Source of the DNA: Acidocella sp.
GTDB taxonomy: Bacteria > Pseudomonadota > Alphaproteobacteria > Acetobacterales > Acetobacteraceae
Direction of reading: 5' to 3'
DNA: 38,534 nucleotides
NCBI GenBank assembly: GCA_027308685.1
Contig: DAIDEE010000021.1
Coordinates: 1 to 38,534 of the forward strand
Shown: positions 7,246-37,252 of the stretch, one piece after another
How the letters are laid out: every line of letters starts with the position of its first letter
Position numbering within the stretch: the first letter of the stretch is position 1
Program-made: the position numbers and the translations under genes
Notes under the pieces: generated by a model
The model's input: the letters and a program-made list of their open reading frames with translations, nothing else
Database searches by the model: none
What the model was told of the DNA's origin: nothing

Positions 7246-7257
7246 AGCGCCATCTCC

Positions 7258-7941
7258 TTAAACTATCGCAGCATCACGGGCGGCTGCACGAAGCCGTGTG
7301 CGAAGCCGCTCAGTGCCGCAACCATCGGTTTGCTCGCCAGGTCCAAAATGCACGGCGGCCTCCTCCCACATGGCGTCCAGCGCCGCGAGATCATCGGGAT
7401 CATCCTGCGAGGCTGAAGGGATTATGGCATCCGGTCGCGCGGCGATGGCGGCCAGTGTCTGGAATACAGCGCTATAGGCGCTCTCCCGGGTGAGCAGCCT
7501 GTCAGCCAGGGCTTGCAGAATACCAGCCGACTCCGCAATCAACGCATGTGCCTCATCGTCGGGCAGCAGTGAGATGAATTCGAGAAATAGCGGTAGAAAG
7601 TCCGGCAACTCGCCCGCCGTTGGCTCCAGACCATGTTCACGATAGAGAGCAATCAGATCGACCATAGCCTGGCCACGATCACGACTTTCACCATGCACAT
7701 GCTCGAATAAATGCAAGGAAAGGTTGCGGCTGCGGTCGAACAGGCCGAAATATCGCTCCTGCAAATCATAAATGTCACGCTCCGCCAATTCAGCCAGCAA
7801 ACGATCAAGCGATGCCAGATGCGCCGGCCCGATGAGACCTTCTTCCCGAAATACCATGGCTATTTCTGTAGTTGCGGCCTGTAGCGCTTCGGTGGGGTAG
7901 GAGATCAGCGCGGCAAGCCCCCGATATGTCCGTGCCATCAC
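7258..7941 (-). CDS. narJ: Nitrate reductase molybdenum cofactor assembly chaperone
   Basis: The 227-aa soluble protein of the TorD/NarJ superfamily has characteristic ALISYPTEALQAA near the N-terminus, YVGLFDRS-type segment YFGLFDRSRNLSLHLFEHVHGESRDRG near 63-90, and GELPDFLPLFLEFISLLP near 110. NarJ binds the NarG N-terminus and is needed for cofactor insertion and membrane attachment. Its ATG overlaps the narH stop by 4 bases (ATGA), implying translational coupling. Confidence 0.95.
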   Translation of the reverse strand: MMARTYRGLAALISYPTEALQAATTEIAMVFREEGLIGPAHLASLDRLLAELAERDIYDLQERYFGLFDRSRNLSLHLFEHVHGESRDRGQAMVDLIALYREHGLEPTAGELPDFLPLFLEFISLLPDDEAHALIAESAGILQALADRLLTRESAYSAVFQTLAAIAARPDAIIPSASQDDPDDLAALDAMWEEAAVHFGPGEQTDGCGTERLRTRLRAAARDAAIV

Positions 7942-9452
7942 TTCACCTCCATCGGTGTTTTGGGCTGCTTGGCATCGAACAAGCTGAAACCCGTTTTACC
8001 GGAGCAGCCTTGTCCGAATGAAAATCCGCAGGACCCACGCATGTCAAACGTATCCTCGCCGGTTTCCCGGTGTGCGGTTGGGATTACAAAGCGGTCCTCG
8101 TAATTGGCAATCGCCATCAACTGGTACATATCCTCGATGTCATGCCCCGACAGGCCCACAGCCTCGGGGATCGCATCAACGATGACGCCATCCACGGTCT
8201 TGGCACGCATATAGGCACGCATCGCCAGCATCCGCTGCAAGGCCAATGTTATGGGTTCAGTCTGGCCCGCGGTTAGCAGATTAGCCAGATAATCAACGGG
8301 AATGCGAAGCGATTTGACATCAGGCATGCTCCCAACCATGCCCAGATCGCCTTTAGCGGCGGCTGCTTGGATTGGCGAAAGCGGCGGCACGTACCATACC
8401 ATTGGCAAGGTGCGGTATTCAGGATGCAGCGGAAACGCGATCTTCCAGTCCATCGCCATCTTCCATACCGGAGATCTGCGAGCGGATTCCAGCCAGGCTT
8501 CCGAAATACCATCGAGCCTGGCCTGGGCTTGTACCTTTGGATCAAAGGGGTCGAGAAAGACTTTTAACTGCGCCTCATATAAATCGCCCTCGTCGGGCAT
8601 AGAAGCCGCCTCCAGGATGCGGTCCGCATCATAGAGAATAACGCCGAGATAACGGATGCGTCCGACGCAGGTTTCCGAACAGACAGTGGGTTGACCTGAT
8701 TCGATGCGCGGGTAACAAAAAATGCATTTTTCGGATTTTCCGGAAGACCAGTTATAATAAATCTTCTTATAAGGGCAGCCAGAGACGCACATCCGCCAGC
8801 CACGGCATTTATCCTGATCGATCAGAACGATACCATCTTCCTCACGCTTATATATGGCGCCGGATGGGCAAACCGCTGCGCAGGCCGGGTTGAGGCAATG
8901 CTCGCACAAGCGCGGCAAATACATCATGAAAGTGTTTTCAAACTCGCCGTAGATTTCCTTCTGAATGCCCTCGAAATTGCTATCCTTAGAGCGATGCGCA
9001 AATTCACCGCCCAGAATTTCCTCCCAGTTGGGCCCCCATTTTATCTTCTCCATCCGCTCGCCACTGATCAGTGAACGGGGCCGGGCCGTCGGCATCGTCG
9101 TGCCTTCAGGCGCGGTTTGGAGATGGCCATAATCGAACGTAAACGGCTCGTAGTAATCATCAATTTCGGGCAGGTCCGGGTTGGCAAAAATATTTGAAAG
9201 AATTCGCCATTTTCCGCCAATTCTCGGTTCGATCGCGCCGTTCTTCCGTCGCCGCCAACCGCCATTCCAATGCTTCTGGTTTTCCCAGTCTTTCGGGTAG
9301 CCAATCCCCGGCTTGGTCTCCACATTATTGAACCAGGCATATTCCATGCCCTCGCGGCTGGTCCATACATTCTTGCAGGTGACCGAACAGGTATGGCAAC
9401 CAATACATTTGTCGAGATTAAGCACCATCGCAATCTGCGCACGGATTTTCAT
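7938..9452 (-). CDS. narH: Respiratory nitrate reductase beta subunit
   Basis: The 504-aa iron-sulfur subunit is near the family norm (about 510). The first cluster motif has C16, C19, C22 and C26; further motifs are CEHCLNPACAAVCP, CRGWRMCVSGCP and CIFCYPRIESGQPTVCSETC. The tryptophan in CRGWRMC, replacing a cysteine, is the hallmark of the [3Fe-4S] centre. It transfers electrons from NarI to NarG in the cytoplasm. Its start overlaps the narG stop by 4 bases. Confidence 0.97.
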   Translation of the reverse strand: MKIRAQIAMVLNLDKCIGCHTCSVTCKNVWTSREGMEYAWFNNVETKPGIGYPKDWENQKHWNGGWRRRKNGAIEPRIGGKWRILSNIFANPDLPEIDDYYEPFTFDYGHLQTAPEGTTMPTARPRSLISGERMEKIKWGPNWEEILGGEFAHRSKDSNFEGIQKEIYGEFENTFMMYLPRLCEHCLNPACAAVCPSGAIYKREEDGIVLIDQDKCRGWRMCVSGCPYKKIYYNWSSGKSEKCIFCYPRIESGQPTVCSETCVGRIRYLGVILYDADRILEAASMPDEGDLYEAQLKVFLDPFDPKVQAQARLDGISEAWLESARRSPVWKMAMDWKIAFPLHPEYRTLPMVWYVPPLSPIQAAAAKGDLGMVGSMPDVKSLRIPVDYLANLLTAGQTEPITLALQRMLAMRAYMRAKTVDGVIVDAIPEAVGLSGHDIEDMYQLMAIANYEDRFVIPTAHRETGEDTFDMRGSCGFSFGQGCSGKTGFSLFDAKQPKTPMEVK

Positions 9453-12400
9453 GGCCGATCTCCCTCAAGCTGCATGGTGGGCTCCGATCCATCCAGCCAA
9501 TCAATTTTATTCAAACGCCGGATAATGATGAACTCATCCCGATTGGAGCCCACAGGCCCGTAGTAATTCAAACCGTAGCTTAGCTGCGCGTAGCCACCAA
9601 TCATATGCGTGGGCTTGAGGAGCACGCGAGTCACCGAGTTATGAATGCCACCGCGCAAGCCTGTCGTTTCACTGCCAGGAATATTCACGATTTTTTCCTG
9701 CGCGTGATACATCAGCGCCATTCCTGCATTGACGCGCTGCGATACAACCGCGCGCGCCACCAAGGCGCCATTCTTGTTATAGGCTTCGATCCAGTCATTA
9801 TCGATAACGCCAATTTTGGCGGCATCGGTCTCACTGATCCAGACGCAAGGGCCACCACGGCTCAACGTCAGCATTAGCAGGTTATCGGTGTAGGTACTGT
9901 GGATTCCCCATTTTTGATGGGGCGTGATGAAGTTCAATGTAATTTCCGGGTTGCCATTGTCGTGCTTGCCTTGCAACGACGCGGTACCTTTGGTGTCCAC
10001 CGGCGGGCGCCAGGTTACCAGCGCCTCGCCGAAGGCGCGCATCCATAAATGATCCTGATAAAGCTGTTGGCGGCCCGTCAATGTACGCCAAGGGATAAGC
10101 TCGTGGACATTGGTATAGCCCGCATTGTAGCACACGGTTTCACTCTCGATACCGGACCATGTTGGCGAGGAGATGATTTTGCGCGGTTGTGCGACAACAT
10201 CGCGGAAGCGAATTTTTTCGTCTTCCCTCGGCAGTGCCAGGTGAGCATGTTCACGGCCCGTGAATTTACTAAGCGCTTCCCATGCTTTTACCGCCACTTC
10301 GCCATTGGTCTCAGGCGCAAGGCTTAAAATAGTCTCGATGGCATGGATATCTGTTTCCAGCTTCGGCTGGCCCGCCGCGACACCTGTGCGGACGATGCCA
10401 TTCAAGGCACCCAGAAAATCCACCTCATGTTCAGTATTCCAGCCAATGCCCTTGCCGCCGTTACCAAATTTCTTCAGCAATGGCCCAAGCGATGTAAATT
10501 GTGCGTAAAGATTCGGATAATCACGCTCAACCACCGCCACTGAGGGCATGGTGCGGCCGGGAATCGGCTCGACATCATCACGCATCCAGTCCTGTACGCC
10601 GTAAGGCTGCGCCAGTTCGGCCGCTGTGTCATGCTGGATCGGGGTCAGCACCACATCAGTCTCATGCTCCAACACTTCTGGGCAAATTTCTGAGAATTTT
10701 TTGGCTAGCCCTTTGAATATATCCCAATCCGTTCGCGCCTCCCAGGCCGGATCCACAGCGGCTGTCAGAGGGTGAATGAACGGATGCATGTCAGACGTGT
10801 TAAGGTCGTTCTTCTCGTACCAGGTTGCTGTTGGCAATATGATGTCGGAATAGACGCAGGTGGTGGACATCCGAAAATCGATCGTTACGAGAAGGTCAAG
10901 TTTTCCTTCAGGCGCTTGGTCATGCCAAACCACCTCCTGTGGTTTTTCCTGGCCCTCCACACCTAAATCCTTGCCAAGCACACCATTGCTGGTGCCTAAG
11001 AGATGCTTCAGAAAATATTCATGGCCTTTGCCGGAAGACCCCAAAAGATTTGAGCGCCACACAAACATATTGCGCGGCCAGTTCTCGGGGGCATCCGGGT
11101 CATGACATGAAAGCTCCAATGCGCCTGAGCGCAGCGCCTGCACCACATAATCCTTGGGCGGCAAGCCGGCGGCCTCGGCACTGGCAGCAATGCCCAGCGG
11201 ATTTTGCTTAAGCTGTGGTGCGGAGGGCAGCCACCCCATACGTTCGGCGCGGGCGTTATAGTCAATAATCGACCCTCCCCAATCACCATCCGGCGCTGTG
11301 GGCGACAATATCTCGGAGATTTTTACCGTCTCATAACGCCATTGGTCGGTATGGGCATAAAAGAACGGCGTGCCAGCCATGTGCCGCGGCGGGCGGTTCC
11401 AGTCGAGCCCGAAGGTAACCGGCACCCAGCCTGTTTGTGGCCGTAGTTTCTCCTGGCCGACATAATGCGACCAACCACCGCCAGACTGCCCCACACAACC
11501 GCACAGCACCAGGAGATTGATGATCCCCCGATACGCCATATCCATATGATACCAGTGGTTTAACCCAGCCCCCAGAATAACCATCGAACGGCCGTTGGTC
11601 TTCTCGGCATTAGTGGCAAATTCACGCGCAACCTGAATGATCTGAGCTCTTGGCACACCGGTAACGCGCTCCGCCCAGGCGGGTGTGTATGGCTCATCCT
11701 GATCGTAATCCGAGGCGACGCCGGCTCCGCCCAAACCTCTGTCGAGGCCGTAATTGGCGCAAAGCAGATCGAACACAGTTGCAACGGCCACCTCGCCCTC
11801 TTTAAGTTGCAGCATGCGGGTGGGGACGTTCCGGGTAACGATGTCGGGATGCTCTGTCCGCGTAAAACCATTGGTTGCGGCTCCTCCGAAATACGGAAAT
11901 GCGACCTCATGCACCTTGCCTGTCTCGATCAGGCTAAGGGTGAGCGAGGTCTCCGCGCCATCGCTGCGTTTTTCCTCTAAATTCCATTTACCCTGTTCGC
12001 CCCAACGAAACCCAACCGAGCCCAACGGGACAACCGGAGCACCGGAGGCATCCAAAGCCACTGTCTTCCAGGCCGCATTATTGGTCTCGCTGAGACCATC
12101 GGCAAAATCATCAGCCCGGAGCAAACGATCCGGGATGTAACTGTCACCTTTGCGGACCAAGCGAACCAGCATAGGCAGATCGCTGAACTTGCGAATGTAA
12201 TCATTAAAATAGGAGACAGTCCGATCGAGATGAAATTCGCGCAGAATTACATGGCCCATCGCCATCGCAAGCGCCGCATCAGTCCCCTGCTTGGGGTGCA
12301 GCCAAATATCGCAAAACTTCGTTGCTTCGGCATAGTCAGGTGAAATGACAGCGCTTTTGGTGCCTTTATAGCGAACCTCGGTATAGAAATGTGCATCGGG

Positions 12401-13183
12401 CGTGCGGGTTTGCGGCACGTTAGAGCCCCAGATCAACAAGTATCCAGCATTGTACCAGTCAGCACTTTCTGGAACATCCGTCTGCTCGCCCCAGGTCATC
12501 GGGCTGGAGGGGGGCAAATCGCAATACCAATCATAGAACGACAAGCACACACCGCCGAGCAGCGACAAGTAGCGTGCGCCGGCTGCAAAAGACACCATGG
12601 ACATTGCAGGAATAGGTGAGAATCCGACAATGCGGTCAGGCCCATGCTGCTTGATTGTGTAGGCATTTGAGGCCGCGATGATCTCATTAACCTCTTCCCA
12701 ATCAGCCCGCACCAAACCGCCTAATCCACGGCGGGTGATATAGCTGGCACGTTTCTCCGGCGCCTCAACAATCGAGGCCCAGGCTGCAACGGGCGCAAGC
12801 GTGGCGCGAGCCTCCCGCCATAATTTGAGCAGGCGGCCACGGATCATCGGGTGTTTTACACGGTTTGCCGAATAGAGATACCAGGAATAACTGGCACCAC
12901 GGGCGCAACCGCGTGGTTCATGGTTTGGTAAATCCGGGCGCGTGCGCGGATAATCGGTTTGCTGTGTTTCCCAGGTAACAATACCGCCCTTAACGTAGAT
13001 TTTCCACGAACACGAACCGGTGCAATTTACTCCATGCGTAGAGCGCGCAATCTTGTCGTGCTGCCAGCGCTTGCGGTAACCATCCTCCCACTCACGCGGC
13101 TCGTTGGTAACCACACCATGACCGTTGGAAAACGTATCAACCTGCTTTCTGAAGAAGGTCAGCCGGTCTAGAAAATGACTCAT
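9449..13183 (-). CDS. narG: Respiratory nitrate reductase alpha subunit (Mo-bisMGD)
   Basis: The 1244-aa catalytic subunit is complete. The FS0 [4Fe-4S] motif has H50, C54, C58 and C93, as in membrane-bound NarG. The segment FYDWYCDLPP, expected to carry the molybdenum-ligating aspartate, and WGSNVPQTRTPDAHF are conserved. The N-terminus lacks a functional Tat signal, fitting a cytoplasm-facing enzyme. I prefer the ATG at 13183 over the GTG at 13186 because GGAG sits 8 bases upstream of it. The narK stop precedes the region by about 20 bp. The enzyme reduces nitrate to nitrite with quinol electrons. Confidence 0.97.
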   Translation of the reverse strand: MSHFLDRLTFFRKQVDTFSNGHGVVTNEPREWEDGYRKRWQHDKIARSTHGVNCTGSCSWKIYVKGGIVTWETQQTDYPRTRPDLPNHEPRGCARGASYSWYLYSANRVKHPMIRGRLLKLWREARATLAPVAAWASIVEAPEKRASYITRRGLGGLVRADWEEVNEIIAASNAYTIKQHGPDRIVGFSPIPAMSMVSFAAGARYLSLLGGVCLSFYDWYCDLPPSSPMTWGEQTDVPESADWYNAGYLLIWGSNVPQTRTPDAHFYTEVRYKGTKSAVISPDYAEATKFCDIWLHPKQGTDAALAMAMGHVILREFHLDRTVSYFNDYIRKFSDLPMLVRLVRKGDSYIPDRLLRADDFADGLSETNNAAWKTVALDASGAPVVPLGSVGFRWGEQGKWNLEEKRSDGAETSLTLSLIETGKVHEVAFPYFGGAATNGFTRTEHPDIVTRNVPTRMLQLKEGEVAVATVFDLLCANYGLDRGLGGAGVASDYDQDEPYTPAWAERVTGVPRAQIIQVAREFATNAEKTNGRSMVILGAGLNHWYHMDMAYRGIINLLVLCGCVGQSGGGWSHYVGQEKLRPQTGWVPVTFGLDWNRPPRHMAGTPFFYAHTDQWRYETVKISEILSPTAPDGDWGGSIIDYNARAERMGWLPSAPQLKQNPLGIAASAEAAGLPPKDYVVQALRSGALELSCHDPDAPENWPRNMFVWRSNLLGSSGKGHEYFLKHLLGTSNGVLGKDLGVEGQEKPQEVVWHDQAPEGKLDLLVTIDFRMSTTCVYSDIILPTATWYEKNDLNTSDMHPFIHPLTAAVDPAWEARTDWDIFKGLAKKFSEICPEVLEHETDVVLTPIQHDTAAELAQPYGVQDWMRDDVEPIPGRTMPSVAVVERDYPNLYAQFTSLGPLLKKFGNGGKGIGWNTEHEVDFLGALNGIVRTGVAAGQPKLETDIHAIETILSLAPETNGEVAVKAWEALSKFTGREHAHLALPREDEKIRFRDVVAQPRKIISSPTWSGIESETVCYNAGYTNVHELIPWRTLTGRQQLYQDHLWMRAFGEALVTWRPPVDTKGTASLQGKHDNGNPEITLNFITPHQKWGIHSTYTDNLLMLTLSRGGPCVWISETDAAKIGVIDNDWIEAYNKNGALVARAVVSQRVNAGMALMYHAQEKIVNIPGSETTGLRGGIHNSVTRVLLKPTHMIGGYAQLSYGLNYYGPVGSNRDEFIIIRRLNKIDWLDGSEPTMQLEGDRP

Positions 13184-13206
13184 CACTAAGGCTCCAGCAA
13201 CAGATT

Positions 13207-14538
13207 TTAAGTGGGGGAAAACGGGCGGCGCATGAATGCGATGGAGACTGCGATGGCGCCGATCGCCAGCACGACATAGACGAAAAATCCACCGGAATAG
13301 CCTTGCACACCCAACGCGCTGGCAAATAACCCAAGGATGGGAGGAATAATAAAACCACCCAACGCACCAAGCCCACCGACGAGACCCGAGGCACCACCAA
13401 CGGCATGGGGTACATAGCGTGGGACCAGCTTGAATACGGCCGCATTGGCAAGCCCCATCCCAACCGCAATCGATAACTCACCCGCCAGGTTAACACTGAA
13501 TAAAGTGACTGCGGTTAGCAATAAGGCGCCAACCAAGACAATGGCAAAACCACCGACTGCCAGCCGTTCACCGCCAAGTTTTTCTGAAAGCGCACCGCCA
13601 ACCACCCGTGAAACGGCTGCAACCAAGGAGAAGCCAACACCACCAAGAATGCCCGCCGTCTTTGCGTCAAAATGGTGCAGGTCAATCCAGTAGATTGGAA
13701 ACCACGCAGTCAGCGCGAGAAAGCCACCGAAGGAGACGAAGTAAAGAAATACCAACCCCCAGCAATGCGGCTCATCCGCAGCAGCCAGCAACGCGCCCCA
13801 GACGGAATTGCCGGGAAATAATTCTTCCCCATGGCGGGCCGCGATGCTGCGCGCCTGCTCGGCGGCGACACCACGCTTACGCAATTGGAAAAAATAGGCA
13901 TCACGCGCAAACATCGCATAAACGATGGTGCCTACGATCAAAAAGACGAGCCAGGAAATATAGGAACCAGCGAGCCCGAGCGCAGTGATCGCAAAGGGCA
14001 AAGCAAGGGTGAACAAACCAGGTGCGATATTTCCAACGCCGCCATAAATGCCAAGCGCCAGACCCTGCCGATTTTTTGGAAACCAGTATGAGACCTGAGG
14101 TACACCGACAGAGAAGGTCGCCACACCGCAACCGCTCATGAACCCGAACAAGAGGATCAATGGGTAAAGGGGCGCCGTAACCGGCGATACCGTAAGTAAA
14201 ATATACACCAGCCCCCACATGCCGACGATGGAAATTCCGAATAACGTGATCATCGGTAACCGGCCGCCGGATTTATCCACCCATGCCCCGAATGGGATCC
14301 GAAGGAGAGAGCCGGTCAATTGTGGTGCCGCGACCAGCAAACCTACTAGGAGCGGCGAAAGATGCATGGTTTTCTGGAATTCGTGCGCCGCCGGCCCATA
14401 AAGAGCCACGGCGGCAAAACCTATGAAAAACCCCCAGGTGCCCATGGTAAGCCCTAGCTTTGGAGTGCCTCGCAGCAAACGTTCGGCCTCGCTTGGGTCG
14501 GTTACATAGGCTCCGACGTTCTGCTGACTCTCATCCAT
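13207..14538 (-). CDS. narK: Nitrate/nitrite transporter of the major facilitator superfamily
   Basis: The 443-aa protein has 12 predicted transmembrane helices. It shows RIPFGAWVDKSGGR after helix 2 and the two glycine-rich nitrate signatures, GIYGGVGNIAPGLFT in helix 5 and ASGLVGGLGALGGFIIPPI in helix 11. The polar N-terminal 25 residues are longer than usual. It is the first gene of the nar operon, so it probably supplies nitrate to, and may remove nitrite from, the respiratory enzyme. FNR-type and ATATCG-type sites precede it. Whether it is the proton-symport or the antiport type cannot be fixed from sequence alone. Confidence 0.94.
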   Translation of the reverse strand: MDESQQNVGAYVTDPSEAERLLRGTPKLGLTMGTWGFFIGFAAVALYGPAAHEFQKTMHLSPLLVGLLVAAPQLTGSLLRIPFGAWVDKSGGRLPMITLFGISIVGMWGLVYILLTVSPVTAPLYPLILLFGFMSGCGVATFSVGVPQVSYWFPKNRQGLALGIYGGVGNIAPGLFTLALPFAITALGLAGSYISWLVFLIVGTIVYAMFARDAYFFQLRKRGVAAEQARSIAARHGEELFPGNSVWGALLAAADEPHCWGLVFLYFVSFGGFLALTAWFPIYWIDLHHFDAKTAGILGGVGFSLVAAVSRVVGGALSEKLGGERLAVGGFAIVLVGALLLTAVTLFSVNLAGELSIAVGMGLANAAVFKLVPRYVPHAVGGASGLVGGLGALGGFIIPPILGLFASALGVQGYSGGFFVYVVLAIGAIAVSIAFMRRPFSPT

Positions 14539-14583: not shown

Positions 14584-14600
14584 ATATCGTATTCCGATAT
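14584..14600. promoter_or_regulatory. Candidate operator ATATCG-N5-CGATAT upstream of narK
   Basis: A perfect 6-5-6 palindrome. If the neighbouring FNR box is at -41.5, transcription starts near 14572 and this palindrome covers about -12 to -28, overlapping a TATATC -10 candidate. That is a repressor position. It matches the sites at 20939-20958 and 22333-22353. Confidence 0.7.
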
Positions 14601-14606
14601 TGTTGT

Positions 14607-14620
14607 TTGATTTAGATCAA
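14607..14620. promoter_or_regulatory. FNR/DNR box upstream of narK
   Basis: TTGAT-TTAG-ATCAA, a perfect match to the FNR/CRP-family anaerobic consensus TTGAT-N4-ATCAA, lies 75 bp from the narK ATG by centre. It should activate the nar operon under low oxygen or NO. No FNR or DNR gene is in the window. Confidence 0.8.
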
Positions 14621-14746
14621 TCTTCAGGTGGATAAATGGTTCAAACGAGCCGCCGATCTGCAATTTGCATCAGGCCAACAGTTAAAAATATTGCTCCAAA
14701 AGCTCTTCGGTTGAATTTTTATGTAAGTGTCAGTTATGATAAAGCC

Positions 14747-15169
14747 ATGACCAAACCTAGCCCTCAGAAACGATCGCTCAAAACCATAGACTATCAGACG
14801 CTCGCGACCTTTCGCTACGAGTTGCGATGTTTTTTGAATTTCAGCCAGAAAGCTGCCAAAAAAAATGGACTGACCCCTCAGCAGCATCAAGCGTTACTGG
14901 CGATACGCTCGGCGGCGGCAAATTCCATGACCATCGGGGAATTGGCGGACCGGCTTTTACTTCGCCCCCATAGTGCCAGTGAATTGACGGACCGGCTGGC
15001 ATTACTCGGCTTGGTCGAACGCACACCGAGCGAACTTGATCGCCGCATCACTTCACTTCACTTAACGCCAAAAGCTGAAGATATTTTGGCTTCGCTCTCC
15101 CTCGCACACCGCGACGAGCTTCGTAGAATTCGCCCCTTGTTAACTGAGTTGCTCGGAAATTTGGATTAA
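14747..15169 (+). CDS. MarR-family winged-helix regulator
   Basis: The product has 140 residues from the ATG at 14747. It starts LATFRYELRCFLNFSQKAAKKNGLTPQQHQALLAI, followed by a winged helix (MTIGELADRLLLRPHSASELTDRLALLGLVERTPS, then DRRITSLHLTPKAEDIL). It is divergent from narK across a 208-bp region holding the FNR box and ATATCG palindrome, and convergent with the HemJ-like gene 6 bp away. The frame remains open upstream to 14636, but similarity starts only after 14747. Ligand unknown; it is an alternative candidate reader of the palindrome. Confidence 0.85.
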   Translation: MTKPSPQKRSLKTIDYQTLATFRYELRCFLNFSQKAAKKNGLTPQQHQALLAIRSAAANSMTIGELADRLLLRPHSASELTDRLALLGLVERTPSELDRRITSLHLTPKAEDILASLSLAHRDELRRIRPLLTELLGNLD

Positions 15170-15175
15170 CTTAAC

Positions 15176-15625
15176 TCAAGGCTTTAAAATCACGAGCGTC
15201 ACAATCAATACAACAAACGCAACTGGCGCAAAAACCATCGAATTATAGAATTTTACGGTGTGATGACTGGTGCCGCTGGCAAGTTGCCGTCGCCAGATTG
15301 AGAGCAATCCATGGTACCCGGACAGCAAAAGAACTGCAAAAAATTTTATCCGCCACCACCAATCATGCCACGAAATAGCGCCGGGTGTCACAATCAATAG
15401 CACCCCGAATCCCCAGGCCGCATACATCGCCGGATTTACCAGGCGCTTGATGATTTTGCGCTCAAGATCGGCCAAGCCGCTTAGTATAGCTACGTTCGGT
15501 GATATCGCCCCATGTTGCGCATAGATCGCGGGCAAAATAATCATACCCGACATCCATAAAATTACCGCGCTGACATGGCCGGCCAGCAACAAAAAATAAA
15601 AAGGCTGTAAAGCAGGCACCGTCAT
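15176..15625 (-). CDS. HemJ-like (UPF0093/CopD-type) membrane protein
   Basis: The 149-aa protein has four predicted transmembrane helices. The pattern LLAGHVSAVILWMSGMIILPAIY, ERKIIKRLVNPAMYAAWGFG, WWRIKFFAVLLLSGYHG and a C-terminal helix ending LVILKP follows HemJ, the oxygen-independent-type protoporphyrinogen IX oxidase of many alphaproteobacteria. The helix-1 histidine and the lysine in RIKFF are in the HemJ positions. It is the last gene of the hcp operon, 8 bp after the truncated haemoglobin, so it could supply or handle haem for that globin. The match is distant; a housekeeping hemJ would normally lie elsewhere. Confidence 0.6.
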   Translation of the reverse strand: MTVPALQPFYFLLLAGHVSAVILWMSGMIILPAIYAQHGAISPNVAILSGLADLERKIIKRLVNPAMYAAWGFGVLLIVTPGAISWHDWWWRIKFFAVLLLSGYHGLLSIWRRQLASGTSHHTVKFYNSMVFAPVAFVVLIVTLVILKP

Positions 15626-15633
15626 GAAGGACG

Positions 15634-16071
15634 CTATCTAGCCATTGCCTGCGGCAACTCACCCTTTTGCACCGCAATCCCAAGCAATAGGCTTTCTGCA
15701 ATACGCTTTGATATCTCAATAAAATGCTGTGCCGCTACCGGCGGGCACATCGCTTCGGCCGTGCGTGCCCATAAGGCCAGCCAATTTTTGAAATGGACCA
15801 CGTCGAGTGGCAATGTTGCGTGCGCACGCATCGGCGAACCGTGGTAGTTGCCGGTCTTTAAAGCCACTGAAGACCAGAACGCGCACATACGGCCCAGATG
15901 CAAATCCCAGTTGGTAATGCGCGATGCAAAAACTGGCCCGAGCAGAGCGTCATCCCGCGCCGCATCGTAAAAAGCATAAACCAGCCGCTCGATCATCGCT
16001 TCATCGATCGCCGTTTCCGCGGTGATACGCGCCGTAACACCAGCCCGCCGGGCCTGAGGATCGTCCAACAT
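15634..16071 (-). CDS. Group III truncated haemoglobin (copy 2)
   Basis: The 145-aa trHb3 has LVYAFYDAARDDALLGPVF, MCAFWSSVALKTGNYHGSPM and the proximal histidine H93 in VVHFKNW. Its ATG overlaps the nitronate monooxygenase stop by one base (TAATG). It is shorter than copy 1 at 4111-4614, lacking the N-terminal extension. Its place in the hcp-nsrR operon points to NO detoxification. Sequence differences from copy 1 suggest ancient paralogues, not a recent duplication. Confidence 0.92.
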   Translation of the reverse strand: MLDDPQARRAGVTARITAETAIDEAMIERLVYAFYDAARDDALLGPVFASRITNWDLHLGRMCAFWSSVALKTGNYHGSPMRAHATLPLDVVHFKNWLALWARTAEAMCPPVAAQHFIEISKRIAESLLLGIAVQKGELPQAMAR

Positions 16072-17537
16072 TATAGTCCAACCTCCTGTTGTGCCGTTAC
16101 AATGGCGCGTTCATGCGCAACGAGCATCGCGGTTAGGCTCACATGCAAACTCTCGTTTCTGACATTTGGTAACAAGCCCTGTAATTTCCGCGTCACCCAT
16201 TTCTGACCAACGATGAGGAATGCCAAACGTTCCGGCAATGCCTCGATCGCCATGGCTTTTTCATAAAACATTCCGGTTCGCTTTGACGGCAATCCATGCA
16301 GCTGCAAAATCGCGTTGATCAGCATGCCGCACCAACGAGCCTCATCGCGGTGCAGCGTTTGCATCTGGGCTATAAGCCTCTCGTCCGTGCATTCGGCCAT
16401 GGTTCGCAGCGCCACGCGGGCACCGGCACGCTCGGCCTCCAGTAATTCATTTAAGGCCGCCAACAATTCATCTCGGCCATAAAAACCCATATAGGTTTCA
16501 TTCATCTCATGCGCAAAACATGCAGGCGAAGCAAAGGGAACTGGTTCATCGGGCCGCGCAACACCCGCCTCCAGCAAAGCCGTCGCTTCACGCACTATTT
16601 GATGCAATTTTTCACCGGCTCCCGTAATAGCGTCGATGCGTCTAACCCCGGTGCCGGCATAAAGCGCCATTGCCTCGAAATCGCCGGTCATTGAGCGCAG
16701 CGGCGAGTCCGTGCTGAATAAATAGAAGGGCCGGTCAGCCTCATGGCCAACCATCGTGCGGGCCGCGGTAAAGGGATCACCATGCTCACCTCTGGTGACA
16801 CTATTGGCAAGCACCCGCACCTTGGCGCCCATCGGCCAATTGATGTGAAATACGTCGGTCAGCAGCGTATCGCCGCATTTTGCCGCGACCAGGCGCTCCT
16901 TGTGATAATTATGGGCAAAGGATTCATGGGTGGCTATCATCGCAGTTCCCACAACGCCACCCTGCGCCCCCAGCGCCAACATCGTCGCCAGATCGGCGCC
17001 ACTGGCAATACCGCCTGCCGCCAGCGCAGGAATATCAACGGCGGCCACAATATCCGACAGCAGCACATCAATGGAGACATCGCCCCGCACATGGCCACCC
17101 GCTTCACAGCCTTGCGCGATCAACGCATTAGCCCCCGCCGCTTGCGCCGCCAACGCTTCCGTTACCGAGCCAACTTGGCACACAACGATCATGCCTGCTT
17201 CACGCAGCCTTTGCACCAAAGGCGCTGACAAATCCCAGAACAAGCCGATGACCGGAACTTTCAGCTCAATACAAGTGGCAATTTGCGCTTCCAGCAACGT
17301 GTCTTCGGTTGCGGCTGGAATCAGATTCACGCCAAATGGCAAGTTGGTATGTTGGCGCACCTGCTCCACTTCGGCGCGAATCAGTGCAACTGGCTCCCGC
17401 ACCATTCCCAAAAACCCAAAGCCTCCGGCCTCGGTAACGGCAATCACAAGTTCCGCCCGCGATACGCCCCCCATGCCAGCCAGCACCACGGGATAGGTGC
17501 AGCCCAGTAAATCGCAAATCGGGGTATGAAGAAGCAT
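16071..17537 (-). CDS. Nitronate monooxygenase fused to a ferritin-like (DUF6306-type) domain
   Basis: The protein has 488 residues. About 1-330 form a 2-nitropropane-dioxygenase TIM barrel with FMN motifs: PVVLAGMGGVSRAELV near 15, QGCEAGGHVRGD near 142 with the catalytic-type histidine, and ALAAGGIASGADLATMLALGA near 170. About 347-488 are helical, with acidic and histidine pairs (ELLEAERAGAR, LHRDEARWCGML, VAHERAI), resembling the ferritin-like DUF6306 domain. The family oxidises alkyl nitronates and releases nitrite. In this operon a role in removing nitro or nitronate products of NO stress is inferred. A fused form of these domains is notable. Confidence 0.85.
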   Translation of the reverse strand: MLLHTPICDLLGCTYPVVLAGMGGVSRAELVIAVTEAGGFGFLGMVREPVALIRAEVEQVRQHTNLPFGVNLIPAATEDTLLEAQIATCIELKVPVIGLFWDLSAPLVQRLREAGMIVVCQVGSVTEALAAQAAGANALIAQGCEAGGHVRGDVSIDVLLSDIVAAVDIPALAAGGIASGADLATMLALGAQGGVVGTAMIATHESFAHNYHKERLVAAKCGDTLLTDVFHINWPMGAKVRVLANSVTRGEHGDPFTAARTMVGHEADRPFYLFSTDSPLRSMTGDFEAMALYAGTGVRRIDAITGAGEKLHQIVREATALLEAGVARPDEPVPFASPACFAHEMNETYMGFYGRDELLAALNELLEAERAGARVALRTMAECTDERLIAQMQTLHRDEARWCGMLINAILQLHGLPSKRTGMFYEKAMAIEALPERLAFLIVGQKWVTRKLQGLLPNVRNESLHVSLTAMLVAHERAIVTAQQEVGL

Positions 17538-17554
17538 CGTCAGTATCCTTGAAT

Positions 17555-17989
17555 TTAAACGCCCACCCCTAGCCGGCGGCGCAGGGCGCGGCTATTCGGG
17601 CCGGCGATGTCGGACAGATTGTAGCGGTCCAGCACTGCCAACATCGCCTTCTGCACTTCATCCATAATTTTTTGCAGCCGGCAGATTCCCGAAATCGCGC
17701 AGGACTCGCCCTCCTGACATTCAACCAAGGCAAGCGTCGGTTCGGTGGCGCGGACCACCATGCCAAGGCCAATGGCCTCAGCAGGGCGTGCCAAACGCAT
17801 CCCGCCGTTACGGCCACGAATAGTTTCAATCAGCCCGGCCTGGCCCAGGTGATGCACCACTTTCACCATATGGTTTTCCGAGATTTGATAGGCACCGGCG
17901 ATCTCGGCAATCGAGGCCAGTTCATCGGGCCGCAATGCGAGGTAGATCAAGGTACGCAGGCCGTAATCGGTAAAGCGGGTCAGATGCAT
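17555..17989 (-). CDS. nsrR: NO-sensing Rrf2 regulator NsrR
   Basis: The 144-aa protein matches NsrR along its length: MHLTRFTDYGLRTLIYLA, SENHMVKVVHHLGQAGLI, IRGRNGGMRLARPAEAI. Cysteines C91, C97 and C103 lie in CQEGESC and the following GICRL. The C-x5-C-x5-C pattern is that of the NO-labile Fe-S ligand set. It lies between the Hcp-reductase-like gene (36 bp) and the nitronate monooxygenase (17 bp), so it is transcribed from the hcp promoter and probably regulates itself. It is the most likely reader of the ATATCG-type palindromes, although the known NsrR motif of gammaproteobacteria is different. Confidence 0.92.
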   Translation of the reverse strand: MHLTRFTDYGLRTLIYLALRPDELASIAEIAGAYQISENHMVKVVHHLGQAGLIETIRGRNGGMRLARPAEAIGLGMVVRATEPTLALVECQEGESCAISGICRLQKIMDEVQKAMLAVLDRYNLSDIAGPNSRALRRRLGVGV

Positions 17990-18025
17990 GAATGTTCATA
18001 ACCCTCTCTGCTGGTGCTCTCAACT

Positions 18026-19042
18026 TTACAGCACGCGCTCGGCGATGATGCGCTCGGGGGGGATGTTGCGCTCATGCGCCACCGCCAATACCGCCTCCAA
18101 CAACCTTGGCGGCCCGCAAACATAGACATCGGGGGTTTGCGTACTGGTTTCGAGATACTGAACAAACGCATCCGCCGCCGTGCCGGTAAAGCCGGTCCAC
18201 GCCGCCTCGGGTCGCCAGACGGCGAGGGTCACGCCCAACTGCGGCAGGGCAGAGCGCAGGGAGTCGATGTCACCGGCAGCGAATAACTCCTCCTCCCGGT
18301 TGGCGCCGAAGATCAAATGAGTGGGCTGGGTGTCTTGGAAATCAGCCAGATGCCGCAGCATCGAGAGCACCGGCGCGAAGCCGCAACCGCCGCCGATCAG
18401 GCAGCGCGGCCGCATGCTGGCGTCATCGAGCACAAATTGCCCCAGCGGCCCCCGTGTAATCAGCATATCGCCGATCTTTGCCTGCTCAGCCAGATAGGTT
18501 GAGAACGCGCCGTTCTTTTGCAGGCGGATCAGGAATTCAAAGCGGCCATCCCAGTTTGGCAAATTAGCCATGGAATAGGCCCGCCGGATATTGGTGCCGG
18601 GAATCGCCAGTTCCATATATTGCCCCGGCACAAAATCCGCCGCCTGTCCGAAGCTTTCATGCGGGGTATAGCGCAATGTGACGGCCATGGCCCCGGCTCC
18701 AGCGGGAGCCAGATTTTCAATCACGGCCTCGCGGCTGATAATTTCATGGCGTTGAATATCGGCTTGCGGATACGGCAATTGAACGGTCAGATCACTGCGC
18801 GGCTCGCACCGGCACAGCAGCACGCCCGCTTGGTCCGCATCGCTCAGCGCGTCCTTGCTAAAGCTGCCCATCTCGTACGCGCCTTCGGCAACATAGGCAT
18901 GGCAAAGGCCGCAACTGCCCTCACGGCACATGGACGGCAAAAATAGTCCGGCGGCGGCAGCGGCATCCAGAATATTTTCATCCTGGGCACAGGCAAATTC
19001 CAAATGGGCACCGTCGCGGGTCAGCAGCGTAATCTCAGGCAT
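18026..19042 (-). CDS. Ferredoxin-FAD-NAD(P)H oxidoreductase, probable Hcp reductase
   Basis: The 338-aa protein has an N-terminal plant-type [2Fe-2S] domain with C39, C44, C47 and C77 (CREGSCGLC, then LCRC). It continues with an FAD domain (PGQYMELAIPGTNIRRAYSMAN) and an NAD-binding domain (CLIGGGCGFAPVLSMLRH; DVYVCGPPRLLEAV). This order, ferredoxin first, is that of MmoC/BenC-type reductases; E. coli Hcr carries its ferredoxin at the C-terminus. Its position after hcp makes it the likely electron donor to Hcp. A GTG at 19048 is an alternative start. It follows hcp by about 70 bp containing a strong hairpin. Confidence 0.88.
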   Translation of the reverse strand: MPEITLLTRDGAHLEFACAQDENILDAAAAAGLFLPSMCREGSCGLCHAYVAEGAYEMGSFSKDALSDADQAGVLLCRCEPRSDLTVQLPYPQADIQRHEIISREAVIENLAPAGAGAMAVTLRYTPHESFGQAADFVPGQYMELAIPGTNIRRAYSMANLPNWDGRFEFLIRLQKNGAFSTYLAEQAKIGDMLITRGPLGQFVLDDASMRPRCLIGGGCGFAPVLSMLRHLADFQDTQPTHLIFGANREEELFAAGDIDSLRSALPQLGVTLAVWRPEAAWTGFTGTAADAFVQYLETSTQTPDVYVCGPPRLLEAVLAVAHERNIPPERIIAERVL

Positions 19043-19076
19043 GGGCACTAAACTCTCTCAAGGAATGACAATGGAA

Positions 19077-19106
19077 GCAGACCGGGGGATTTTGCCCCCG
19101 GTCTGC
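19077..19106 (-). terminator. Strong hairpin between hcp and its reductase gene
   Basis: GCAGACCGGGGG, a 6-base loop, CCCCCGGTCTGC: a perfect 12-bp stem starting 7 bases after the hcp stop. No T-run follows on the minus strand, so it may attenuate downstream expression or protect the hcp message 3' end and need not terminate fully. Confidence 0.5.
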
Positions 19107-19112
19107 GCCGGT

Positions 19113-20780
19113 TCAGGCGGCCTTGCGGTTCAATGCGGCGGTGATATCAGCCTCCGCCGTGGTGATAGGTTGGATGCCAAAGCGGCTAACCAGAATGTCG
19201 ATCAAAGTCGGGGTGAGGAACGCCGGCAAGGTCGGCCCCAGCCGGACATTGCGCACGCCCAAAGCCAGCAACGTGAGGAACACCGCCGCGGCTTTCTGCT
19301 CGAACCACGACACCACCAGCGACAGCGGCAGATCATTCACCCCGCAATCAAATGCCTTGGCCAGTGCCTGAGCCACGACCAGGGCCGAGTAGCTGTCGTT
19401 GCATTGGCCCATATCCAGCAAACGCGGGATGCCGCCGATGTCGCCGAAATCTTCCTTGTTGAAGCGGTATTTGCCGCAGCCAAGCGTCAGCAGCACCGTA
19501 TCCTTCGGGGCGGCCTCGGCGAACTCGGTATAGTAATTACGCCCTGGTGCCGCGCCATCGCACCCGCCGATCAGGAAGAAATGCTTGATAGCGCCGGATT
19601 TGACAGCATCGATCACGGTCCCCGCCACGCCCAGCACGGCATCGCGGCCAAAGCCCACCGTGATGGTTTTTTCAGGCTCGGTGACGCTGAAGCCCGGCTG
19701 CGCCAAGGCCGCCTGTACCACCTGACTGAAATCACCGTTGCCAATGTGACGAATCCCCGGCCAGCCCACCGGACCCGCCGTGAAAATGCGGTTGCGATAG
19801 AGCGCCTGCGGTTCCACCAGGCAGTTTGAGGTCATCACGATCGCGCCCGGGAAAGCCGCAAATTCCTGCTGCTGATTCTGCCAGGCGCCACCGTAATTTC
19901 CCACCAGATGCGCATAAGCCCGCAGCTTTGGGTAACTATGGGCGGGCAACACCTCACCATGCGTATAAACATTAATGCCGGTGCCTTTGGTCGCTTCCAG
20001 GACGCCTTCAAGGTCGCGCATGTCATGGCCGGAGACCAGAATAGCCTTGCCGGCTACCGGTGTAATCCGCACCGCCACCGGCGATGGTGTGCCATAGGTG
20101 CCGGTATTGGCGGCATCCAGAGCTTCCATGACGGTGAAATTCACCCGGCCAAGTGCTAAGGATTCTTCCAACAATTCTTCGAGATCAACCGGCTCGCTGG
20201 CGAGAAAATCGAGCGCATGGGCAATGCCAACCGCAATCGCCTCGCGGGTTTCGCCCAGTACTTCGGCATGGTGAGCATAGGCGGCCACACCTTTCAGCCC
20301 GTACAGCACCAGTGCCCGCAATCCAATGACATCGGCCCCCACAACATCCAGCCCGGCGCGCACGCTGGCGATATTGGCCTGGGCCAGCAGGCCGGTTGGG
20401 TCGGTGGCGGGAATGAAACTGGCCGGACCGTGCAGCACATCCGGCGTCTGACCGGCGGCCTTCGCGACGGCTTCATAGGCACCGCGCAGGCGGTCCCGGA
20501 TGCGGGCGGCCTCGGCGATCATCTCCACAAAGCGGGCGCGATTGAAATTCACATTGGTCAGGGTGGTGAACAGCGCATACAGAATGAAGCTGTCAGCCTG
20601 GGCGTCCGGCTGGCCCAAGGCGTGCAACCGGGCGGAATATTGGCCCAGCCCTTTGAGCTGATAGATCAGCACATCCTGCAAGTCAGCCGTCACCTCATCC
20701 TTACCGCAAACCCCTTTGGCAGTGGCGCACCCTGCGCCGGTATCTGTTTTTGTCGTTTGTTCACATTGAAAGCAAAACAT
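19113..20780 (-). CDS. hcp: Hybrid cluster protein (hydroxylamine/NO reductase)
   Basis: The 555-aa protein is complete. The N-terminal motif C3, C6, C18, C25 (C-x2-C-x11-C-x6-C) is the class II form found in facultative bacteria. The hybrid-cluster ligands are in [50 protein letters not shown] and [11 protein letters not shown]. Hcp reduces NO and hydroxylamine in the cytoplasm, and in E. coli acts as a high-affinity NO reductase. It is the first gene of the operon, with an FNR/DNR box and an ATATCT half-site upstream. Confidence 0.96.
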
Positions 20781-20856
20781 GAGCCACCTGTCTCCCGAAT
20801 ACGGTCTCTCCTCGCGCCGGGAAGATCATCAACCAGGCCATCAAAGGTGTATTTTC

Positions 20857-20870
20857 AATATATCTTATGT
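20857..20870 (-). promoter_or_regulatory. ATATCT half-site over the hcp -10 region
   Basis: ATATATCTTAT at 20858-20868 equals one arm of the ATATCG palindrome, but the other arm (TTTGAC) is degenerate. On the minus strand it overlaps a TATATT hexamer at 20862-20857, about 30 bp downstream of the FNR-box centre, the same relation as at narK. Confidence 0.5.
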
Positions 20871-20882
20871 TTTGACGCTGCT

Positions 20883-20896
20883 TTGATTTAAGTCAA
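20883..20896. promoter_or_regulatory. FNR/DNR box upstream of hcp
   Basis: TTGAT-TTAA-GTCAA differs from the perfect TTGAT-N4-ATCAA palindrome at one base. It is centred about 109 bp from the hcp ATG and about 30 bp upstream of the TATATT -10 candidate, consistent with a class II activator position. Confidence 0.75.
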
Positions 20897-20938
20897 ACGC
20901 CCGATTAGGCGGAACCTAGGGCCTGAGTTTGCAGAGAT

Positions 20939-20958
20939 ATATCTTATTGCGATATAGC
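20939..20958. promoter_or_regulatory. Candidate operator (ATATCT-N5-CGATAT) upstream of the HPP gene
   Basis: TATATCT at 20940-20946, spacer TATTG, CGATATA at 20952-20958: arms pair at 6 of 7 positions. It lies 30-48 bp upstream of the HPP ATG, a position compatible with blocking its promoter. Third member of the motif family. Confidence 0.65.
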
Positions 20959-20987
20959 CAGCGTCCCACTTTCCGGAAACGCGCCGT

Positions 20988-22160
20988 ATGAAAATCACCG
21001 TCAAATCACCCGCGGGGATCAGAGCCAGCCTGTTGCGAAAGCCTCGGTCCGTTTCAGCTAAACCCTCCCCTTTCCAGCCAAGCCCCTCTGGGCGCGTGAG
21101 ATTTTTTGCGCCTGTTTTATCGGGTGCGACATTGCTCGACCGGCTAATTGCATGTGGCGGGGCACTTATCGGTATCGGCCTGACGGGATATTTATGTTCC
21201 CTCATCGAATTTCATAATGCCGGTATCAATTTACCACTTCTGGTGGCACCAGTCGGGGCCTCTGCAGTACTTTTGTTTGCCGTGCCCGCCAGCCCCCTCG
21301 CGCAACCTTGGTCGATCATCGGCGGCAACATCATTTCCGCCCTTGTGGGTGTGTCGGTGGGCCGGATCATTCACGACCCAACAACCGCGGCAGCTCTCGC
21401 TGTCGCGCTCGCCATCGGCGCCATGTCGCTCGCGCGATGCCTGCATCCACCTGGGGGAGCCGCAGCCCTTACCGCAGTTTTGGGTGGGCCAGCCATCACG
21501 TCCGCCGGCTTCACATTTGCATTTGTTCCAATGGGGCTGAACTGCTTTGTGCTGGTTGGCCTGGGCTGGCTATTTCACAAACTATCTCGGCACTCCTACC
21601 CGCACAAACCAAGCGTCATCGCCGTCAATACCCATGGCACGCGCGATCGTCCTGCGCCGATCCGGGTCGGGTTTCAAGCTGAAGATATTTCAGGTGCATT
21701 AGCGGATTTTGGAGAAACCTACGATATTAATCCAGATGATCTCGACCACCTACTGCGACGCATTGAGATGCGGGCCTTCGAGCGGACCCATAACAATCTA
21801 ATATGCGCCGACATCATGTCGCGGGATGTCATCCATGTTGATAAAAATACAAAATCACAAACAGCGAGGTCGCTGCTACTGGATCACGATGTACGTACGT
21901 TGCCGGTCATCGATGATCACCGGAGGGTTATTGGTATTATTGGGTTGCGTGAATTATCGCGCCTGGGTGAAATGGTGTCTGATTTAATAGCGGATGCTGA
22001 AGTTACGCTACCGGATCAGCCCGCCTTCAATCTTGTGGCACCGCTTACGAATGGCCGGAACCACGCCGTTATCGTGGTGGACCAAAACCACCGCTTGCTG
22101 GGCATTGTCACTCAGACAGATCTTCTGGCTGCTCTGGCCATCTCACCTAGACCGAGATAA
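20988..22160 (+). CDS. HPP-family membrane protein with C-terminal CBS pair, candidate nitrite transporter
   Basis: The product has 390 residues. After a basic N-terminus of about 40, four to five hydrophobic helices (about 45-195) form the HPP domain, including the signature RCLHPPGGAAALTAVLGG. A linker (about 200-265) leads to two CBS motifs (ICADIMSRDVIHVD...LPVIDDHRRVIGIIG and NHAVIVVDQNHRLLGIVTQTDLLAAL). HPP proteins of cyanobacteria and Arabidopsis chloroplasts have reported nitrite transport activity, so a nitrite role fits this context. CBS pairs usually bind nucleotides and gate the membrane part. Divergent from hcp across 207 bp and preceded by an ATATCG-type site. Confidence 0.88.
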   Translation: MKITVKSPAGIRASLLRKPRSVSAKPSPFQPSPSGRVRFFAPVLSGATLLDRLIACGGALIGIGLTGYLCSLIEFHNAGINLPLLVAPVGASAVLLFAVPASPLAQPWSIIGGNIISALVGVSVGRIIHDPTTAAALAVALAIGAMSLARCLHPPGGAAALTAVLGGPAITSAGFTFAFVPMGLNCFVLVGLGWLFHKLSRHSYPHKPSVIAVNTHGTRDRPAPIRVGFQAEDISGALADFGETYDINPDDLDHLLRRIEMRAFERTHNNLICADIMSRDVIHVDKNTKSQTARSLLLDHDVRTLPVIDDHRRVIGIIGLRELSRLGEMVSDLIADAEVTLPDQPAFNLVAPLTNGRNHAVIVVDQNHRLLGIVTQTDLLAALAISPRPR

Positions 22161-22332
22161 TTCTCACAGCTTGATCTCTATTTTCATTCGGTTTTTTGGC
22201 TGGCCGCTTCAACTTTAGTCCCGTCGGCTAGGGCCATTGCTGAGCGATCGGCCTACAAACCCGACTAAAACTATCTCCTGACTATAGTGATTACCAAGAC
22301 CGTGGAACGCTTGCCGATATAGTTTGACTTGA

Positions 22333-22353
22333 ATATATCGTAATACGATATAT
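22333..22353. promoter_or_regulatory. Candidate operator ATATATCG-N5-CGATATAT upstream of ClC
   Basis: The best copy of the motif in the window has perfect 8-bp arms around TAATA. An extra CGATATA at 22315-22321 forms a further inverted repeat with the left arm. It sits between a TTGACT (22324-22329) and a TATAAT (22351-22356), about 40-60 bp upstream of the start codon. Confidence 0.75.
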
Positions 22354-24704: not shown

Positions 24705-25037
24705 TGATCAAGCACCCTAAGTAACTTGCGAACAGTATTAGGTCAAATAACCATTTGTTCCTATCCGATAAATTCGTCCAGATCGTTATGATATATCGTA
24801 AAAAGTGTCCTAATCGACGTCATCGGCGGATATTTATCTATAAGCCAAATACCATAACAGCTTTCAGGCTCATCGGGTTCTCCTGTAGCATTAGGGTAAA
24901 CCGAAAATCCTCCGTTATTCGACAACTTCAATATGTTTCGATGGCGCTTATGGGCAGATGGATTTCCCCAGCGGGCCGTTTCTCTAAAACTCTGGCCCGT
25001 TAATTGCTCGCTCCATCATCATGATGGCGGTACTAGC
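24705..25037. other. Intergenic region upstream of nasT with an isolated ATATATCG half-site
   Basis: A 333-bp AT-rich region without a recognised gene. At 24791-24800, ATATATCGTA is identical to one arm plus spacer of the operator at 22333-22353, but the second arm (AGTGTC) is not conserved. A nasTS promoter must lie here but no strong consensus stands out. Confidence 0.4.
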
Positions 25038-36469: not shown

Positions 36470-37252
36470 TCAAGTTGCTGTGGATTTATCCTTTCTGGTT
36501 TTTGGTCTGTTGGTGCTGTCCTTGAAGCGGAAGCTGTCATTACCGGTCTCGATGATGTGGCAATGATGGGTCAGGCGGTCGAGCAGCGCTGTGGTCATCT
36601 TGGCATCACCGAACACTCCGGCCCATTCGCTGAAACTGAGGTTGGTGGTGATGATGACGCTGGTGCGCTCATAGAGCTTGGAGAGCAGGTGGAAGAGCAG
36701 CGCGCCGCCTGACGGACTGAACGGCAGGTATCCGAGCTCATCGAGGACTACGAGGTCGAGGCGCAGTAGGCGTTCGGCCAGCTGGCCTGCTTTGTTCAAT
36801 GCCTTCTCTTGCTCAAGCGCATTGACCAGATCGACGGTGGCAAAGAACCGGACCTTCTTGCGGTGATGCTCGACCGCCTGCACGCCCAAGGCGGTGGCGA
36901 CGTGGCTTTTGCCGGTTCCGGGGCCACCGATCAGCACGATATTGTCGGCACCATCCATGAACTCGCCGCGGTGTAATTGCCGGATCAGAGCCTCATTGGC
37001 CTCGCTGGCGGCAAAGTCGAAGCCGGTCAGATCCTTGTAAGCAGGGAACCGGGCCGCCTTGATCTGGTAGGAGATGGACCTGACCTCGCGCTCGGCCATC
37101 TCCGCCTTGAGCAACTGCGAGAGGATCGGCACGGCCGCATCGAAGGCAGGCGCACCTTGTTCGATCAGGTCACCAACAGCCTGGGCCATGCCGAACATTT
37201 TAAGGCCGCGCAGCATCACCACCACGGCCGCACTGGCGGGATCATGACGCAT
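36470..37252 (-). CDS. istB: IS21-family ATPase helper IstB
   Basis: The 260-aa AAA+ protein has Walker [10 protein letters not shown], Walker [13 protein letters not shown] and sensor-type [16 protein letters not shown]. The start [19 protein letters not shown] is the usual IstB N-terminus and overlaps the istA stop by 11 bases; a longer frame to 37294 exists. IstB helps the transposase with target choice and strand transfer. Confidence 0.95.

Follow-up and report, generated by a model that had tools for sequence, protein, structure and literature searches.

MarR-type repressors that diverge from a transporter gene are a well-known kind of regulator, and one of them, PecS of Vibrio, is described as binding also between nsrR and nod (PMC6391409). 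The NsrR motif given in PMC1274295 is gATGyAT-N5-ATrCATc, which at enterobacterial hcp lies downstream of an FNR-like site, and an HPP protein of cyanobacteria and chloroplasts is reported as a nitrite transporter (PMC4137279, PMC7438415). Here, we examine a palindrome, ATATCG-N5-CGATAT, that recurs in a 38,534-nucleotide stretch of Acidocella sp. DNA (contig DAIDEE010000021.1, hereafter the window, by which we mean that whole stretch). The original prediction had joined nar, hcp, HPP and ClC genes into one candidate regulon, with NsrR as the preferred reader of the palindrome and the MarR protein beside narK as the alternative. We consider it highly probable that the palindrome is the operator of this MarR protein, serving the ClC gene, the HPP gene and the narK/marR gap, and that NsrR acts separately on hcp. 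The sites and the genes most closely concerned are as follows.

14584..14600: predicted operator 1, ATATCG-TATTC-CGATAT, perfect; narK/marR intergenic region, 45 bp 5' of narK
20939..20955: predicted operator 2, ATATCT-TATTG-CGATAT, one arm mismatch; 32 bp 5' of the HPP start
22333..22353: predicted operator 3, ATATATCG-TAATA-CGATATAT, perfect 8-bp arms; ClC promoter, between -35-like and -10-like elements
14747..15169, + strand: MarR-family regulator, 140 amino acids; earlier in-frame ATG at 14636; Pfam MarR_2, 54.3 bits (cut-off 27)
20988..22160, + strand: HPP-family membrane protein with CBS domains; Pfam TM_HPP, 164.2 bits
22393..24249, + strand: ClC-family transporter with CBS domains; Voltage_CLC domain; GHGIP/GAEGP instead of the usual GSGIP/GREGP

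All three palindromes were recovered where they had been claimed, and computation shows that the site is rare, that it is conserved together with marR and ClC, and that it has a defined position in ClC promoters. Perfect ATATCG-N5-CGATAT occurs twice in the 2.86-Mb genome, both times in the window, against no copy of the reversed pattern, a control that does not preserve dinucleotide content; exact matches to TATCNTANTNCGATA are confined genome-wide to the three reported sites. All six genomic occurrences of the decamer ATATATCKTA fall inside the window (reversed control, one per strand), although this count is weaker than it appears because the half-copy at hcp is explained by an NsrR box. 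A loose scan of the window alone (up to three mismatches) was barely enriched, with 21 matches found versus 13.3 expected. Among 10 near-copies inspected elsewhere in the genome (one or two mismatches to either pattern), six are internal to an open frame, one is at a frame end (L019) and three are between frames (L009, L021, L023), of which L021 precedes a gene for a TctC-type binding protein.

The palindrome travels with marR. In the stretch that runs from 200 bp before the estimated start of marR to 20 bp past it, 69 of 78 named marR loci carry it with at most one mismatch (52 perfect, 17 with one), and three more have two mismatches. Control windows taken from these loci do as well (one mismatch or fewer) in just 16 of 3951 cases, several of which coincide with second sites. 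The named set comprises the best 80 of 453 relatives and is rich in Sphingomonadales, with L231 and L243 left out of this count for short upstream DNA; it also includes Rhizobium, Mesorhizobium, Nitrospirillum, Inquilinus, Bordetella, Pigmentiphaga, Pantoea, together with metagenome bins that bear the labels Verrucomicrobiia and Armatimonadetes. A ClC gene lies divergently upstream in 63 of the 69 site-bearing loci and elsewhere in one. Rather than being scattered or lost at orthologous genes, the ClC site is thus kept with marR and ClC, and it was the reader first named as an alternative, MarR, that gained support.

Aligned in the ClC direction, the 69 operators read ATATCG-YANTR-CGATAT, with TTGA-like columns on their 5' side and, on their 3' side, A/T columns with which a -10-like element becomes complete; the remaining flanks show hardly any conservation. 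At the ClC promoter of the window, TTGACTTGAAT stands directly 5' and ATAATAAAC directly 3' of the 17-bp site. The operator therefore fills the promoter spacer, which is where a repressor would sit. As the original prediction held, the palindrome is very probably, judging from sequence, a true operator in a repressor's position, and one that joins the ClC and HPP genes. A MarR dimer would bind ATATCG-YANTR-CGATAT and, being seated between the -35-like and -10-like elements of ClC, would exclude RNA polymerase; at the HPP gene it would act from the operator 32 bp before the start codon. An effector would then release the dimer and switch on both transporters, here perhaps nitrate respiration too. 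Second sites 3' of marR in several Sphingomonadales precede a small open frame that resembles a membrane protein and gave no Pfam match. A perfect operator with TTGACT before it (L306:2532-2548) lies 5' of an open frame whose match to Usp (universal stress protein) stays below threshold.

In the family, 19 of 30 marR-homologue loci, the window included, have the palindrome upstream of marR with up to two mismatches (28 of the 30 homologues are at least 42% identical), and one further locus, L053, has it between marR and ClC. The family supplied 28 neighbourhoods other than the window's. An adjacent ClC of 49% identity or more is found in 17 of them, every one with the site (one mismatch or none in 15, two mismatches in two); three others, which are cut off by a contig end near the site, also have it. 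Scans of 28 whole genomes found one or two copies of ATATCGYANTRCGATAT (up to one mismatch) in 26, against none of the reversed control in any of the 28, so the regulon appears small; most copies are the marR sites, the exceptions being a copy in G207 that differs from its marR site and one in G217 on another contig. In G182 and G057, whose marR locus is siteless, ClC lies on another contig than marR and is preceded by a one-mismatch operator, which points to action in trans. Of three g63 genomes that have marR and no ClC of such type, two hold no consensus copy (up to two mismatches) and the third, G062, holds two, the same number as the reversed control; G093 has a marR without adjoining site and three two-mismatch copies elsewhere. 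Within the genus, a close marR (at least 59% identity) is present in 7 of 38 genomes, the window and G228 included, and in the five others marR, operator and ClC follow one another; the genus and named sets overlap, since L164/L303 and L165/L304 are apparently the same contigs. Three same-genus genomes without a marR orthologue either have no ClC match (G068) or only one of 32-34% (G140, G187), and their two-mismatch consensus copies number 0, 1 and 1 versus 0, 1 and 1 in the control; G068 holds one perfect ATATCG-N5-CGATAT with a different core.

The regulator itself is a MarR protein by its winged-helix domain (MarR_2, above the cut-off) and by its fold. Its structural model has a predicted local distance difference test (pLDDT) score of 88.9, and the Foldseek matches listed are MarR-type proteins; PecS is the best of them, and the model resembles operator-bound PecS and MftR. 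A predicted palindromic operator at its own or the neighbouring gene, as seen in the 69 named loci, is a further family trait. Invariant residues include Q46, H47, Q48, R83, D98, R100 and H121, which might form an anion pocket. Our search, made in open-access papers and not in regulon databases, gave among the papers listed no MarR protein described as controlling a ClC, HPP or nar gene.

Several observations weigh against this account. At least three mismatches at marR leave 6 of the 78 named loci with no copy of two mismatches or fewer there; three of these six, L164, L165 and L191, carry it before ClC instead. No ClC match was found in 5 of the 69 site-bearing loci, and 8 of the 28 family neighbourhoods have a marR homologue and no site, six of them in two genera. 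A perfect ATATCG-N5-CGATAT is present in 38 of 200 family genomes, of which 12 have a marR match at 1e-10 and 26 have none, and in 5 of the 12 the copy lies elsewhere than at marR. The 14 genomes picked as exceptions hold 11 two-mismatch consensus copies versus 5 in the reversed control. Finally, the narK site has no independent orthologue, and the other five genomes of the genus with a close marR have their site between marR and ClC. Since perfect arms also occur in genomes without a marR match, it takes the core YANTR and the position, and not just the arms, to recognize the site. One such genome (G036:C74, locus L154) has two perfect palindromes 4.3 kb apart (7800-7816 and 12148-12164), perhaps the site of another regulator with similar specificity.

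What the MarR protein senses is the point on which the strongest rival bears. The ClC filter GPGIP serves nitrate and GSGIP serves chloride. GHGIP and GAEGP are present in all 70 aligned ClC sequences of the subclass, the window's included, and the proline expected in GxGIP of a nitrate-selective ClC is therefore replaced by histidine. With a filter of neither kind, ClC and HPP might serve general anion or pH homeostasis, and the signal for the MarR protein might be acid, an aromatic compound or a different anion; phenolics are common ligands of MarR proteins, and the structural matches include salicylate-, benzoate- and hydroxynicotinate-related structures. Moreover, nitrogen genes lie near marR in only a minority of the 80 named loci (nasA 8, DUF6306 7, nsrR 4, HPP 4, hmp 3). 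In contrast, 4 of 5 genus loci have marR beside a gene for flavohaemoglobin, the enzyme that converts nitric oxide (NO) to nitrate (NF009805 above cut-off in both loci tested, L303 and L306), and 2 of 5 have HPP nearby. HPP proteins are, in addition, reported as nitrite transporters or candidates for that role in the sources cited at the outset. We regard an effector unrelated to nitrogen oxides as a serious possibility, only a little short of an even chance. From the flavohaemoglobin and other nitrogen neighbours and the nitrite reports on HPP, we guess, with low confidence, that the effector is nitrate or nitrite.

A bolder extension would make the MarR protein the founding example of a family of repressors that sense nitrate or nitrite and are found in several phyla. 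Such repressors would link nitrate metabolism and the detoxification of NO to the movement of anions through the GHGIP/GAEGP ClC and HPP, and here would have captured the whole narKGHJI operon in a genome without detectable PF13675; we offer this as speculation that is unlikely to hold in full. No PF13675 domain was detected in this genome, and among 14 control genomes only E. coli matches, PF13675 being, as we presume, a domain of E. coli NarX-type sensors.

Operator 1 calls for separate consideration. The features that bear on it are these.

13207..14538, - strand: narK-type nitrate/nitrite transporter, first gene of narKGHJI; best NCBIfam match NarK, below the curated cut-off
6466..13186, - strand: narG, narH, narJ and narI (respiratory nitrate reductase), downstream of narK; Pfam
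14607..14620: FNR-type box TTGATTTAGATCAA, upstream of narK

The palindrome lies 45 bp from narK; it is 146 bp from the likelier marR start (14747) and 35 bp from the earlier ATG (14636). Its centre is 21.5 bp from that of the FNR box, and not about 30 bp as first estimated. The site could serve narKGHJI, marR or both. A reading in which it serves marR autoregulation only, with narKGHJI outside MarR control, draws on the relatives, most of which have the site just upstream of marR and shared with ClC. The narK site itself is found only in the window genome and in G228, where it is identical; as G228 is near-identical in this stretch, conservation cannot be judged from it. The earlier ATG would also place the site close before marR, whereas the distance to the likelier start, compared with that to narK, speaks the other way, as does the location of the site beside the FNR box and over the expected FNR-activated narK promoter. 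We consider autoregulation alone possible, though somewhat doubtful. In the reading that we prefer, MarR bound at operator 1, which overlaps the expected core promoter of FNR-activated narKGHJI, may control narK as well. Of the predicted regulon of nitrate respiration, NO reduction and anion transport, the union of ClC and HPP very probably stands, with the narK/marR gap joined to it in this genome; hcp falls out on the evidence of the promoter to which the following features belong.

20883..20896: FNR-type box TTGATTTAAGTCAA, upstream of hcp
20844..20866, - strand: NsrR-type box AAGATATATTGAAAATACACCTT, hcp promoter; 3 mismatches to AAGATGYATNTNANATRCATCTT; outside the predicted MarR regulon
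17555..17989, - strand: NsrR-type Rrf2 regulator, presumed reader of the hcp box; best NCBIfam match NsrR, below the curated cut-off
19113..20780, - strand: hcp (hybrid cluster protein / hydroxylamine reductase)
24791..24800, + strand: candidate half-site ATATATCGTA, before nasT

That NsrR reads the palindrome, with nar, hcp, HPP and ClC forming one NO regulon, finds support in the presence of nsrR in the same window and in the FNR box and half-copy at hcp. Homologues of nsrR do occur near marR (4 of 80 named, 2 of 28 family and 1 of 5 genus loci), and larger stretches around six hcp-nsrR operons contain a single one-mismatch palindrome, in L158, which has a G+C-rich core and is separated from hcp by about 2.3 kb. 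Nevertheless, in 29 other NsrR-homologue loci, each taken with 1.5 kb to the left and right of nsrR, no copy has fewer than two mismatches (two loci hold two-mismatch copies), so that the proposed co-occurrence with nsrR orthologues did not materialize. NsrR matches are found in 193 of 200 family genomes versus marR matches in 36 (both at 1e-10), making NsrR homologues far more widespread than the palindrome. Near relatives whose hcp is 68-85% identical to the window's lack the palindrome in all six hcp promoters. The published NsrR motif differs from it as well (PMC1274295), in agreement with the dissimilarity already remarked for gammaproteobacterial NsrR.

What the hcp promoters have instead is an NsrR-type box, for which we composed the consensus AAGATGYATNTNANATRCATCTT after inspecting those of the relatives. 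Five of the six relatives match it with 0-5 mismatches and the sixth, L156, weakly with 7; L157 has a second, equally good match at a different spacing. In the window, the box at 20844-20866 is the only match with six mismatches or fewer, the best matches in 40 shuffled windows having 4 to 7. It lies downstream of the FNR box with a centre distance of 34.5 bp, compared with 33.5-34.5 bp in the five relatives that have an FNR box, L156 among them. Both half-copies noticed earlier, at hcp (20857-20870) and before nasT, are present in the sequence, but the one at hcp is an arm of the NsrR-type box and is rejected as a MarR half-operator; a half-site before nasT was looked for in the same-genus relative L303 and not found. 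As the palindrome goes neither with nsrR loci nor with hcp promoters and hcp has an NsrR-type box of its own, we reject NsrR as its reader; the single NO regulon is very improbable. With hcp lacking the palindrome in relatives and carrying an NsrR-type box there, two regulons appear to abut in the window: NsrR would control hcp through the classical box beside the FNR box, and MarR would control ClC, HPP and the narK/marR gap. NsrR-type boxes also precede the flavohaemoglobin gene in L306 (3 mismatches) and in L303 (7306-7328, 1 mismatch), where the box stands before a flavohaemoglobin-marR gene pair and NsrR may control marR.

That the copies are no operators but resemble one another by chance or belong to a repeat element, as slight enrichment at three mismatches in the window and perfect copies in genomes without this MarR might suggest, has a negligible probability given the genome-wide counts, the conservation across phyla, the promoter position and the excess at named loci over control windows, which speaks strongly against chance at the marR/ClC site.

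Other genes of the window were noticed as well.

34642-36219 and 36470-37294: ISL3-type transposase and IS21-type IstB, respectively, at the right end of the window

These two genes show that the nitrogen cluster ends in mobile DNA. Between marR and nsrR, a nitronate monooxygenase domain is fused to DUF6306 (16071-17537), a domain whose relatives make up the DUF6306-like proteins counted above, and positions 15634-16071 encode a 145-amino-acid protein with no Pfam family above cut-off, which we take to resemble a truncated haemoglobin and whose relatives lie near marR in 3 of the 80 named loci.

Overall, for two poorly understood transporters, the unusual-filter ClC subclass and HPP, the analysis names the regulator that would control them in several phyla, its operator and its genes, and it resolves into two what appears in the window as one regulon. 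The operator consensus makes the regulon testable, and the ligand, once found, should show which anion or stress the two transporters serve.

Known systems offer the following comparisons. MarR-family regulators bind palindromes of 16-20 bp according to the review PMC10458429, in which a word search for chloride, ClC, nitrate and nitrite gave no hit. PecS is likewise a MarR-type repressor divergent from a transporter gene, with palindromic operators in the intergenic region. The present regulator differs from it in its predicted targets, since the divergent gene is ClC (with HPP as a further target) and not a PecM-type (EamA) efflux gene, in its identity of 22% over the structural alignment, and in an operator unlike the quoted Vibrio nsrR-nod site (PMC6391409). 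The extra N-terminal helix with a conserved tryptophan that this source describes for PecS also has no counterpart, as the 140-residue protein contains no tryptophan and the first helix of its model begins at residue 13. The ClC protein shares the Voltage_CLC and CBS domains of E. coli ClcA, Synechocystis Sll0855 and plant CLC-a and keeps the glutamate of GREGP, whereas its subclass has GHGIP and GAEGP. Finally, the palindrome, unlike the motif of the NsrR regulon, does not follow nsrR; the NsrR-type protein and the NsrR-type box beside an FNR box at hcp, by contrast, reproduce the arrangement described for enterobacterial hcp (PMC1274295).

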